A DNA stretch of 64,000 nucleotides, from the IMG/VR virus record IMGVR_UViG_3300042477_000480, positions 124,001-188,000 of that record. One strand, written 5' to 3'. Under the pieces are notes generated by a model, which was not told the DNA's origin, ran no database searches, and saw only the letters and a program-made list of their open reading frames with translations. A program made the position numbers and the translations under genes. Positions 5,309 to 54,106 of the stretch are shown one piece after another (position 1 is the first letter of the stretch; every line of letters begins with the position of its first letter). Origin of the DNA: a virus.

Positions 5309-5381
5309 GCGCGGCCTGCTTGTAAATATCTAAAGCGCCCATTGTAGAGAAGTTTATTCTACCCCAAAAGCGCCAATAGCT

Positions 5382-5430
5382 AAAAAAAAGCGCCGTGCTT
5401 GGGGTTACCCCCGAGCCGTGCGCCTTTTTT
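5382..5430 (-). terminator. intrinsic terminator after the 102-residue gene
   Basis: On the minus strand the stem pairs GCGC, GCT and GGGG with matching partners, separated by small symmetric internal loops. Eight T follow, then the tag TAGCTATTGGCGC. It directly follows the stop codon of 5429-5737. Confidence 0.75.
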
Positions 5431-5737: not shown

Positions 5738-5774
5738 GTGGTCCTCCATGAATGCCGTCTCGAAAGGAATAGCT

Positions 5775-5807
5775 AAAAAAAGGCGTGCACCCTTTCGGAT
5801 GCACGCC
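5775..5807 (-). terminator. intrinsic terminator after the 249-residue gene
   Basis: The minus strand shows a perfect 8-bp stem GGCGTGCA / TGCACGCC followed by seven T and the tag TTTAGCTATTC. Translation of the next gene starts only about 35 bases downstream. Confidence 0.85.
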
Positions 5808-8505: not shown

Positions 8506-10731
8506 TCAGGAGGCGGCCGCAACTCCAGCCCCTGCGCCACCCACAGCAGCCGCTCCGCCAGCCCCATAGGCCAAGCGTTTCCCGGCCGGCACCATCGGCG
8601 ACGCGACCGTCATGCCATACTGGAGCATGGGCTTGTACACATACTTGCCAACCGCGGGCATAACGCCGGATTCATGCGGCTTGTACACCATGCTGTGATC
8701 CGCGGCCGACAGCCCTTGCAGCCGGCGCGGTGAAAGCTGGAACTCCACGGGTGTCTGGCCCAGCGTGCCCTTGATGTTCCAGCCGTGATAGCCCGGGCGC
8801 TGGAGCATTTGCGATTTACTTATGTTTACGCCGGCCTCTGTCAGCTGCTTCGTTAAGCTATCAATGACAGGTTGGTCATAACCGCCCTGCGATGTGAGCC
8901 GAAAGCCCAGCAGGTCATTGGTTATTGTGTCGCCGTGGCCAGCAATACTTTGCGGTGTCTTTACCCGGCCGGCATACACTTGGAACCCTTTGGGCTGAAA
9001 TGACTTCAAGAACTCATTGCCGGCCTGTAACGCCTGCTCACGTTCTTTCTGGAAAACGCCTTGGGGCACATTGTCGCCCAGCGTTGTCATGGGGCCACGA
9101 AATGCGCTTCGAGCTGCGCCCACAGCCTTCGAGATACCCTTGAGACCAATGCGCCGGCCGAACTCCATGAGATTCGCCGACTTTTCTTTTTCGTCGGGCC
9201 AGCCGGGTTGCAACTGGTATTCGTACACGGGCTCGCCATGCAGCAGTTGTTTCTTGGCGAGGGCTGGAACTTTGCCGACCATAGCGCCGGACGGATCGGG
9301 TTGCAGGCGATAGCGTTCCTGCAGCCATTGTTTTTTGTATTCCGGATCTGTTTTGGCCAGCCGCATGAACCCCTGTGTCTGCACAAAGTTTTCGATATCT
9401 TTGGGCGCAAGGGAAACATTATGTAATCTCTCGGGCGGCACGCTCAGGGGCGTAATCTTGTAGTGTGTGCCTTCTTCTAACTGGCGCTTGTGTGTCCGCT
9501 CCGCCAGATGTTTACGCAGCCGGTCGAGAACTTCCTGCTGTTTCTTCTTGTTCCCGGGAATGATGGCGCGCGCTTCCCCTGTCCGGGCATTGTTGTAGGC
9601 CAGTCCGGGGTGCTGCAGCTCATCAAGAATCTGGTGTAAAGACTTGCGCAGGTTCACGCCCTGCACATTGCCCTCAAAGCTGTACACGGCAGACTGCTTG
9701 CCGAACTCATAGGCGCTGGAGCATTTGCAGTTCCACTTGCGCAGAGATTTGTTAATGCGCGAGTCAGGATCTTTGGCCGTGCTGGCGCCAGTGTTAACTC
9801 GACGCATGCCGCACATACGGGAGCAGAAAGAATTCTGGCGCTTGGCCCGGTCGCCCTTGGGGTTACTTTCGGTCACAGGGGCTTTTAAGTTCCCGCCGTG
9901 CTCCCGTTCGTAGCTCTTGCGCCCCTTCTCGTTGAGGCCGCCAGCTTCGTTTTTGCCCTCGCTGCGCTGCCATGCCGGAGTTGACGATATCTTTTCGCTG
10001 CTATTGGCGGTCCCAAAAGACGCATTGCCGTTAATATCGCCGCTGGACGAGATAGCCCCATAAGAATTAATGGGATTGGCGTTGGGAGAGCTACCGCCGC
10101 CTACTGGAGGAAGCTGCCCGGATTGCCCTTGGGCGCTCGCTTGGCCGCCAGCAGGGGCCGCCGGGGCTGCAGGAGCCTGTGCCATACCCATTGGGGGCGG
10201 CGTCGCGGCAGCTGGCATGGCGTATCGTTTAATTCCACTGTTCATCGGCTGTAACTGGGCGTTTCGGGCCTCCTGTTCAGCCTTTTCATTCTCGATCGCC
10301 TGCATAATCGGCTGGGACAAGACGACCGAAAGCTTTTTAAACAAGCTATTTTCCGCTTTTTCCGGCATTTTTTCGCAGATATGGTTTTCCCCCACGGTTT
10401 CTGCCGGCTGGACGGGTTTTTCACCTGCCGCCATGGGTTTATCACTCTGGGGGAGCGTAACTTTAACCGTTGTAGACTCGGCTTTCTTGCAAATTTGGCT
10501 GTAAATACTTACCGCTAATGACTTTGCAGAAAAATCCCAGTTGTTTGGCACCATGGCTGTTTTCTTATTTGTATCGTCGTCGCTGGACTCTGGCTTTTTG
10601 TCTTCTTGAGCCTTGTCAGAGACGTACAGAGGGAGCTTTTTAGGCTTCGGATACTCATGCGCCCAGCGTTTGGCAATATCTGGGTGCGCAGCCCAGAGAA
10701 ACCGTCGCTGTTTTTCTGAGCGAAAGGGCAT
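8506..10731 (-). CDS. multidomain protein with RelA/SpoT-like synthetase domain
   Basis: The protein has 741 residues. The N-terminus (MPFRSEKQRRFLWAAHP...) matches a short motif common in phage proteins. A low-complexity Ala/Pro/Gly region follows (about 165-250). A Cys-rich block at about 285-350 (ESNPKGDRAKRQNSFCSRMCG ... RKWNC) resembles the phage DUF6321-type motif. Residues 582-684 read like the RelA/SpoT nucleotide pyrophosphokinase fold: GRVKTPQSI (588-596), NDLLGFR (Asp606), GYHG (647-650), VEFQLS (Glu663), His679, YK (683-684). The C-terminus is Gly/Ala-rich and hydrophobic. Family enzymes make (p)ppGpp or pyrophosphorylate tRNA ends; activity here is inference. It may be a virion protein delivered into the host. 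Confidence 0.72.
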   Translation of the reverse strand: MPFRSEKQRRFLWAAHPDIAKRWAHEYPKPKKLPLYVSDKAQEDKKPESSDDDTNKKTAMVPNNWDFSAKSLAVSIYSQICKKAESTTVKVTLPQSDKPMAAGEKPVQPAETVGENHICEKMPEKAENSLFKKLSVVLSQPIMQAIENEKAEQEARNAQLQPMNSGIKRYAMPAAATPPPMGMAQAPAAPAAPAGGQASAQGQSGQLPPVGGGSSPNANPINSYGAISSSGDINGNASFGTANSSEKISSTPAWQRSEGKNEAGGLNEKGRKSYEREHGGNLKAPVTESNPKGDRAKRQNSFCSRMCGMRRVNTGASTAKDPDSRINKSLRKWNCKCSSAYEFGKQSAVYSFEGNVQGVNLRKSLHQILDELQHPGLAYNNARTGEARAIIPGNKKKQQEVLDRLRKHLAERTHKRQLEEGTHYKITPLSVPPERLHNVSLAPKDIENFVQTQGFMRLAKTDPEYKKQWLQERYRLQPDPSGAMVGKVPALAKKQLLHGEPVYEYQLQPGWPDEKEKSANLMEFGRRIGLKGISKAVGAARSAFRGPMTTLGDNVPQGVFQKEREQALQAGNEFLKSFQPKGFQVYAGRVKTPQSIAGHGDTITNDLLGFRLTSQGGYDQPVIDSLTKQLTEAGVNISKSQMLQRPGYHGWNIKGTLGQTPVEFQLSPRRLQGLSAADHSMVYKPHESGVMPAVGKYVYKPMLQYGMTVASPMVPAGKRLAYGAGGAAAVGGAGAGVAAAS

Positions 10732-12991: not shown

Positions 12992-13077
12992 TTTGACGTA
13001 AGTGTTTGCAACACAAAGACTTACGTCAAAAAGGTATTCCGGTTTGACGTAACATGTTGCGGCACAAGGACTTAGCG
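12992..13077. repeat. 12-bp inverted repeat with a degenerate neighbouring copy
   Basis: TTTGACGTAAGT (12992-13003) and ACTTACGTCAAA (13019-13030) are a perfect inverted repeat with a 15-base spacer. A diverged copy starts with TTTGACGTAA at 13043. It may be an operator or a transcribed hairpin. Confidence 0.5.
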
Positions 13078-13086
13078 CTAATAGCT

Positions 13087-13111
13087 AAAAAAAGCGGCGC
13101 CGAAGCCCGCT
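13087..13111 (-). terminator. intrinsic terminator of structured RNA 2
   Basis: Stem AGCGG/CCGCT with a loop of about nine bases, then a T7 run and the tag TTTAGCTATTAGCGC. Confidence 0.72.
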
Positions 13112-13771
13112 CGTGTCCGGTTTCATCACATGGTCGGATTCCACGCCACTGGGACAGACTAATGCGCTAGCCCGCCCGGTGGTGTTATATGCGCTTAAGG
13201 GCAACAGCAAGTAAGTGCGCAGTTACTTGTCGGCAGCAACGATGCGCATACCGCACCGCCTATGCTGTTGGGTCAGCCACTCACACCCATAGGGTCTTCT
13301 ATGGGTGGAGCCTTTGAGGCCGCTGACCAGAACCTTCGCATTGCCGAAGCGAACGCGTCTAGGTTGTTAACACAAGCAACGCCCACGGAGCAGGTACTAC
13401 TACCCGCCTTGACCCCGTGATCCGTTTATTAGGCTACGTATACCATTGGGCTCAACTTATTAACGCTGATCAGGCGTTAGTTTGTCGGGCTATTGATATA
13501 CCGCAGGACTTTCACCTGCACCCCCCGCTCTCCTAAGTACTTTTTTATGAGCACAGTCGAGGAAGGAACGCTCGTTTGCACACCATAGCACTCGCTTGTA
13601 TGGCTTAACAGGGCGCTACCCCCGTGCAAACTCCATTGCCTTAACGCCTACCCCCACGAAATTCAACCACCAAGGTTGCTCCCCATCCCTTGCGGAATGG
13701 GCCTCAGTGTGCGTGCACCCAGAGATTAGTTCATCTCACACGCTTCCGTAGGCGCTGCTTGTGTTAACAAC
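13087..13771 (-). ncRNA. candidate large structured non-coding RNA 2 (~690 nt or longer)
   Basis: This stretch has no convincing gene but is full of pairing. On the minus-strand RNA, bases 13771-13745 pair with 13389-13363 in an unbroken 27-bp helix; the two non-Watson-Crick pairs are both G-U. It closes a domain of about 355 nt that contains GTTTGCAC/GTGCAAAC (13574-13631), GCAGG/CCTGC (about 13503-13519) and TAACGC/GCGTTA. Downstream are CACCCATAG/CTATGGGTG (13284-13307) nested in GGTCAGC/GCTGACC, and CAAGTAA/TTACTTG (13208-13229). It ends in a terminator at 13087. The 5' end is not defined; it may be processed from the transcript starting at 14115. Resembles GOLLD/ROOL-type RNAs in size and setting; class not established. 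Confidence 0.7.
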
Positions 13772-13879
13772 GCTAATAAATCCGACGCATTGCCATATTT
13801 CCACGTTACGCGTCGGACGTACATGGGGCCGGGCTTCGACCCCAGCGGACTGATGCTCACCCAGTTCGTGTAAAACTCC

Positions 13880-14071
13880 TTAGTTACGATTGACGTGAAT
13901 GATAAACCCCTCGCCGAACGGTAGACGAAAAGCAGGGTCTGCAATAATCTTGCCATTGACCTCGACTCTTTCCTCGACGATTAGCCGCCGAGCAATGTGC
14001 TCGTCGACAGGCGTTTTGGAAAAAGGACCTACCTCGACCAGATAGTCTACGAGTGTTTGTTCTTTGGCCAT
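13880..14071 (-). CDS. small S4-like RNA-binding protein
   Basis: The 63-residue protein reads ...DEHIARRLIVEERVEVNGKIIADPAF...GEGFIIHVN. This is the pattern of an S4 RNA-binding domain: a helix-turn with ARRLI, then 'V.VNGK...DP...G..I.V'. It is a stand-alone S4 domain with no attached enzyme. AAGGAG precedes the ATG, and a sigma28-like promoter lies 50 bases upstream. It sits immediately upstream of structured RNA 2 on the same strand, so it may bind that RNA, a tRNA or the ribosome. A second S4-like domain is found in 14903-15316. Confidence 0.68.
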   Translation of the reverse strand: MAKEQTLVDYLVEVGPFSKTPVDEHIARRLIVEERVEVNGKIIADPAFRLPFGEGFIIHVNRN

Positions 14072-14151: not shown

Positions 14152-14367
14152 TCAAACCAACCGGTCAATTGCTGCCACAATTGCGGCCGAATACCGCAAC
14201 CCGATATCTTCGGCCTCACTGCCCTCGCCGTACGCCTGCTGCAGTTCTTCCTGCATCTTGAGTACGGCGGCCCTCGTCTCAGCCAGCGTCCGGCGCATGT
14301 CCTTGAGCTGGATTTCCGGCGCTGTCTTGTACCGCAACCCCGCCTTCGTCGTCACTTGCGGTTCCAA
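14152..14367 (-). CDS. small helical protein overlapping the next upstream gene
   Basis: The frame encodes a charged helical protein (APEIQLKDMRRTLAETRAAVLKMQEELQQAYG...), probably coiled coil. The start is uncertain. A TTG at 14367 has AAGGAG at ideal distance and gives 71 residues; ATG starts farther upstream (14442 or 14538) would create a longer overlap with 14279-14590. The two frames overlap out of phase, so coupling or a frameshift product is possible. No known family. Confidence 0.5.
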   Translation of the reverse strand: MEPQVTTKAGLRYKTAPEIQLKDMRRTLAETRAAVLKMQEELQQAYGEGSEAEDIGLRYSAAIVAAIDRLV

Positions 14368-14590
14368 ATCGCTCTCCTTCTTTCTCACACAGGTCGTCCA
14401 CCATTGGTTGTTCCAGTTCGTCGCCGCCTGATGCGTTGCCATGTTGCGTCTCTTCGAGGAAATAAAGAATGTCGCTGATCGCGCCATCGACAGCACTGAC
14501 CGCTTGTCGAATCTTGGTCTCAGCGACGCATAGTTCACGTTTTGTTTTAATCATCGTCTTCAGCGTGTCAACTAAAACTCGCCTTGTCAT
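14279..14590 (-). CDS. small helical protein with acidic tail
   Basis: The 103-residue protein has an N-terminal helix-rich half (VLVDTLKTMIKTKRELCVAE) and an acidic/glycine-rich C-terminal half. The ATG at 14590 has AAGAAG before it. Its 3' part overlaps 14152-14367 in another frame. Unknown function. Confidence 0.5.
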   Translation of the reverse strand: MTRRVLVDTLKTMIKTKRELCVAETKIRQAVSAVDGAISDILYFLEETQHGNASGGDELEQPMVDDLCEKEGERFGTASDDEGGVAVQDSAGNPAQGHAPDAG

Positions 14591-54054: not shown

Positions 54055-54070
54055 AAAAGCTCCAATAGCT

Positions 54071-54106
54071 AAAAAAAAGGGGGGAGTAGCTAGGCTACTA
54101 CCCCCC
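54071..54106 (-). terminator. strong intrinsic terminator between 54098-54382 and 53131-54054
   Basis: GGGGGG-T-AGTAGC pairs with GCTACTCCCCCC (one bulged T), then eight T and the tag TTTAGCTATTGGAGC. The hairpin includes the TAG stop of the upstream gene, and the next ATG follows within about 20 bases. Confidence 0.85.

Follow-up and report, generated by a model that had tools for sequence, protein, structure and literature searches.

A large structured phage RNA, closed by a long-range helix, that resembles GOLLD and ROOL in kind only

What does a phage encode in about 685 nt that fold strongly and hold no protein gene, and does the product belong to a known class? The question arises at minus-strand positions 13087-13771 of a 64,000-nt stretch of DNA (the window), which comprises bases 124001-188000 of a 203-kb IMG/VR virus record; all sequences compared here are metagenomic. 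Most genes of the window lie on its minus strand, and its content includes a thymidine kinase, a DUF6321 protein (8506-10731), five tRNAs, and a tmRNA. By megablast, INPHARED holds no near relative of the source phage. A sequence-only reading of the window had proposed a large structured RNA at this place, which we examined by folding, comparison with related phages, and searches against known RNA families.

The most conspicuous element is a helix, P1, in which minus-strand positions 13745-13771 (5' arm) pair with 13363-13389 (3' arm) over 27 positions. It has 25 Watson-Crick and two G-U pairs, exactly the uninterrupted helix that the sequence-only reading had described. In a scan of the whole window it is the longest helix with 220-700 nt spacing (the next is 17 bp), and mononucleotide shuffles of the window gave maxima of 14-18 bp. 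On the opposite strand, P1 is just 16 bp because the G-U pairs turn into A-C. These G-U changes had been taken as evidence of selection on RNA; two such pairs alone say little, and the conclusion stands through the relatives described below. Folding of the minus strand, proposed earlier as a check, gave -341 kcal/mol over 796 nt compared to -289 +/- 6 for shuffles (z -8.8). The region is a large structured RNA as proposed, but P1 encloses only 409 nt of it (13363-13771, the core), and 13362-13087 form a separate 3' domain. No reading frame spans 13087-13771: open stretches are short and frames differ among relatives. Homologues carry stops in all frames and indels that are not multiples of three, so we rejected a protein-coding gene, in line with the absence of a believable gene noted before.

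Related phages, about 200 kb in size, were reached via the DUF6321 protein. When their DNA was searched with a nucleotide profile, the RNA turned up in L067-L072, L074, and L079, and a motif scan added L148. The L067 and L068 RNAs are the same, so that nine IMG/VR contigs yield eight distinct RNAs besides that of the window. All lie on the same strand as the window RNA and upstream of the DUF6321 gene, with one good copy per genome in each of six ~200-kb genomes. The relatives' RNAs are about 450 nt long (685 nt in the window) and share 80-98% identity among themselves and 56-60% with the window RNA. Each of two motif scans of viral contigs gave exactly these nine, and a search by neighbouring protein recovered eight of the nine plus the L066 contig. 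An arm-sequence pattern had no match in viral contigs, and loci collected initially through a 235-aa neighbour contained no RNA homologue. BLASTN of INPHARED with the window RNA and one relative RNA found no homologue, only two 30-nt chance matches. Among 85,000 species genomes, a motif scan gave two short, chance-like matches; these scans rely on exact motifs and may miss distant members.

A gene of the up128 family (14152-14451, minus strand) precedes the RNA in every homologous locus; its protein, tested as an RNA-binding partner, gave a model of moderate confidence (pLDDT 79) and no significant fold match. Between this gene and the RNA, the window also encodes a 63-aa S4-domain protein (13880-14071), relatives of which sit 0.8-1.9 kb further upstream in L066, L069, and L148. 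The nearby tRNAs of the sequence-only reading are present as an upstream cluster: tRNAs and tmRNA lie 3.6-7.2 kb upstream in the window, and upstream in relatives too. The closest tRNA is 4.3 kb away and the tmRNA 3.6 kb. This phage tmRNA (17413-17763; Rfam, 130 bits) was missed by ARAGORN, its tag seemingly ends in NSAPALAA (read by eye), and it is retained upstream in seven related phages.

Comparison among the homologues provides the main evidence for structure. The RNAalifold consensus contains 120 pairs, 37 of which changed on both sides with pairing kept; these are the compensatory changes that had been named as a test. Pairing holds in 96.4% of cells in the consensus vs. 36-43% in a control with partners slid, and the covariation score of 0.284 compares to 0.149 +/- 0.008 for shuffled partners (0/500 reach it). 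The alignment folds at -285.5 kcal/mol, compared to a mean of -178.7 +/- 5.8 for column shuffles (z -18.3) and -233.6 for the antisense strand, so that the sense strand is better by 52 kcal/mol. Much of the covariation comes from three lineages (the window, the main group, and L069 plus L148), since the eight relatives are closely similar. The matched changes among relatives prove RNA structure, and it is almost certain that this is a structured, functional RNA.

P1 itself varies from 24 to 27 bp, and 13 of 25 pairs changed on both sides in relatives (arms CAAGAAGCGCUCGUGAG + CUCACGAGCGUUUCUUG in L072 and CAUGGCAUGCCUGUAAG + CUUACAGGCAUGCCAUG in L069). The core it closes is about 350 nt in relatives and is built in the order P1, two hairpins, a long central stem with several hairpins on it, and a final hairpin abutting P1. 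The first hairpin, P2 (13711-13743), has a conserved AUGAAC..AUCUCU.GGUGCA motif and a GC/AU exchange in its stem; the second junction hairpin (13671-13709) is longer in the window than in relatives, and four pairs of its helix 4 changed on both sides. The central stem (helices 6-8) joins 13638-13661 to 13410-13434. It carries a hairpin at ~13578-13622 whose sequence in the window is other than in relatives, the helix 11 domain (13521-13564; CUCGACU...UAGG.GAGCG), the nearly invariant hairpin 13 (13503-13519; GCAGGUGAAAG.CCUG), and helix 16 (13459-13481), in which 7/8 pairs changed on both sides. The last hairpin, at 13390-13408, adjoins the P1 3' arm. The sequence of several loops and joining segments does not vary. 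The helix 16 loop (13467-13473) reads CUGAUCA in the window and CCGUACA in the eight relatives, so that its inner tetranucleotide is one palindrome (GUAC) or another (GAUC).

The RNA also has defined ends. In 8/8 core-bearing relatives, a near-consensus sigma-70 promoter-like sequence (TTGAC[GAC]-N16-TA[GCA]A[AC]T; 11/12 matches in L069) ends 5-8 nt before P1; its -35 box overlaps the final codons of the upstream gene. The transcript is accordingly predicted to begin at P1. In this position the window has a weak promoter-like sequence (13775-13803, TGGAAA-N17-TTTATT; 8/12 matches), which a stricter promoter scan did not find. Downstream of the core, the relatives form a hairpin, an H-type pseudoknot, and a terminator, with pairing in 189/189 cells. 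Their second pseudoknot helix is GUGGG/CCCAC, GCGGA/UCCGU, or GGCGA/UCGCC, with three pairs changed on both sides. The 3' domain of the window (13087-13362) is longer than and different from theirs, and in its final 60 nt it shares homology with L084 and L088, the only real matches in a pattern search for this 3' module. The shared end forms a pseudoknot (13116-13145; 13141-13145 with 13129-13133 and 13135-13138 with 13116-13119), each helix of which has one compensated pair among the three sequences, followed by an intrinsic terminator hairpin and T-run (13087-13110), where the sequence-only reading had placed a terminator. Altogether, a promoter (strong in relatives, weak in the window), a terminator, and covariation mark a free-standing ncRNA gene, and we predict that the RNA is very probably transcribed separately and acts in trans.

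Several observations were made alongside. The last 60 nt are all that the window RNA has in common with L084:465-934 and L088:601-1066, which are strongly folded non-coding stretches (z -9.5 and -7.7). Further strongly folded gaps occur at L075:5240-5613, L075:6079-6365, and L072:8241-8641 (z -8.9, -11, and -7.1). Directly after the window terminator are palindromic CGTAA...TTACG repeats (12992-13087), and L066 and L072 have comparable repeats. The hexamer AGCTAT preceded by a T-run appears at 13081-13092, 5376-5387, 5769-5780, and 54065-54076 (four found vs. 0.01 expected per window) and in many relatives too; several copies are at terminators, and within each genome searched the motif is always on one strand.

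One relative, L066, has the frame of this RNA without its core. Behind its upstream gene lies GUUAGCACAAGCGGCG...CGCUGCUUGUGCUAAC, which forms a hairpin of its own that corresponds to P1; the pseudoknot and terminator of the other relatives come next (L066:8640-8790). The 300-nt core is absent at this locus and was not found elsewhere in the 157-kb record. Since the window, the outgroup by identity, has the core, its deletion in L066 is the simplest reading; and since L066 lives without it, the core is not needed in every lineage. L078 is a candidate distant homologue, represented by a single sequence. At the corresponding place (L078:8641-9094) it has a 25-bp long-range helix, a similar hairpin order, a CGUACA loop, and the motifs UUCCAAGYG and CUAG..GAG; the best unfiltered model match falls near the expected place (E 0.002 in 1 kb), whereas the filtered search gave no match.

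Comparison shows the RNA strand, the multibranched core closed by P1, the 3' pseudoknot module, the terminator, and, in relatives, a strong promoter-like sequence at the likely start. The best explanation of the whole, to which we give a probability of about one half, is an independent phage ncRNA gene whose product is a folded molecule and possibly a self-associating scaffold. The strong promoter-like sequence of the relatives would start the transcript at the closing helix, and the RNA would be made in infected cells, where P1 and the pseudoknot-terminator end may protect both of its ends from exonucleases. More tentatively, the RNA may act in trans as a scaffold that holds or sequesters a host or phage component during infection. 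Self-association might occur via the palindromic loop of helix 16 (GUAC/GAUC), in the manner of GOLLD, ROOL, and OLE. We regard the scaffold or self-association mechanism as possible but somewhat less likely than not to hold. The palindrome switch is a lead only, being one event; if the end positions are fixed as G and C, a palindrome arises by chance in 1/4 of cases. Bolder still, and rather doubtful, is an undescribed class of large phage RNA in which copies assemble via the palindromic loop into an RNA particle, with a removable core and a fixed frame. If this were true, the core could be discarded or swapped by phages that retain the closing helix, pseudoknot, and terminator as a frame. 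The RNA adds a separate large-RNA family with a compact ~350-nt core, defined ends, and eight natural variants for structure work, for which the core-less L066 is a natural control for function.

Alternatively, the RNA could regulate in trans, as a sponge or decoy whose target is a host protein, a small RNA, or a ribosomal factor; its fold would then serve mainly for stability and for display of single-stranded loops. This reading shares the separate promoter and terminator with ours, and the invariant loops and joining stretches as well as the upstream tRNA and tmRNA cluster speak for it. However, we saw no repeated binding site, the covariation spans the whole molecule and not a few display hairpins, and most known sponges and decoys are much less elaborate, all of which makes it unlikely on balance.

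We think it quite improbable that the RNA is instead a cis-acting leader, riboswitch, or attenuator for downstream genes, in which the pseudoknot and terminator would do the switching. Riboswitches may be laid out with a pseudoknot immediately ahead of a terminator, and in L078 a small membrane-protein frame begins within about 60 nt after the helix. In the other direction, the terminator closes the unit with the next gene some 200-400 nt further on, and the downstream genes differ among the window, L066, and L072. In addition, the 350-nt core within P1 far exceeds known aptamers, and L066 retains the pseudoknot and terminator without a core.

The remaining possibilities are known kinds of element. 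The only likeness to an intron is that hairpin 13 (GGUGAAAGNCC) resembles a motif of the group-II-D1D4-4 model (RF02003), at 9.9-13.5 bits against a cut-off of 49 (E 1.3 in L072 and 7.7 in L069). That the RNA is a ribozyme, be it a group I or group II intron (degenerate or free-standing) or some other kind, is very unlikely: the match is below any threshold and confined to a single hairpin, no domain V family matched in Rfam, no gene is interrupted, and a promoter and terminator flank the RNA. Rfam searches of the RNA of the window and relatives at curated and permissive thresholds, the covariance-model check suggested earlier, brought no family over its gathering threshold. Run directly at E<=10 on the record of the window and on seven relatives, the GOLLD model (RF02032) found nothing; nor did the ROOL model (RF03087) in eight records, a search in which the control genomes of the tool were negative as well. 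That the RNA is a divergent GOLLD or ROOL, as its size, phage location, upstream tRNA cluster, and ornate fold might suggest, is against these eight phages' results highly implausible; the comparison with these RNAs in the sequence-only reading holds only as a likeness. Finally, a DNA element with inverted repeats as transposon ends, for which the L066 helix without core could be read as an empty site, is hardly tenable, given arms that change together, G-U pairs that favour one strand, covariation inside the core, the same position in all genomes, and no transposase.

Large ornate RNAs known from bacteria and phages are few, and how common RNA-only particle assembly is among them is an open question (PMC12286853). 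We found no description of the present RNA in the literature, chiefly among openly accessible papers. It shares one hairpin motif, GGUGAAAGUCC, with the group-II-D1D4-4 intron RNA, and differs from it in scoring below threshold and in having neither domain V nor exon context. OLE is a large ornate bacterial RNA reported to self-associate by symmetric loop contact, a likeness to the RNA described here, which is phage-encoded and has no Rfam match of any kind in its region. For GOLLD and OLE, Kretsch and co-workers regard palindrome switches as evidence for symmetric kissing loops (PMC12286853). ROOL is comparable to the window RNA in its large size, its presence in phages, and its proximity to tRNA islands, but here a removable core is combined with a conserved 3' pseudoknot module. 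GOLLD, too, is a large ornate phage RNA near tRNA clusters with separate domains of unequal conservation, and its palindromic loop, which switches between palindromes (PMC12286853), is similar to the helix 16 loop of the window and relatives. For a homo-oligomeric cage like that of GOLLD, this loop switch is the one related observation here. The GOLLD sequence and layout are different: here, a ~350-nt core is closed by one long P1, with a conserved promoter directly before it. Thus, the RNA belongs to no family tested, and represents a new family that resembles GOLLD and ROOL in kind only.
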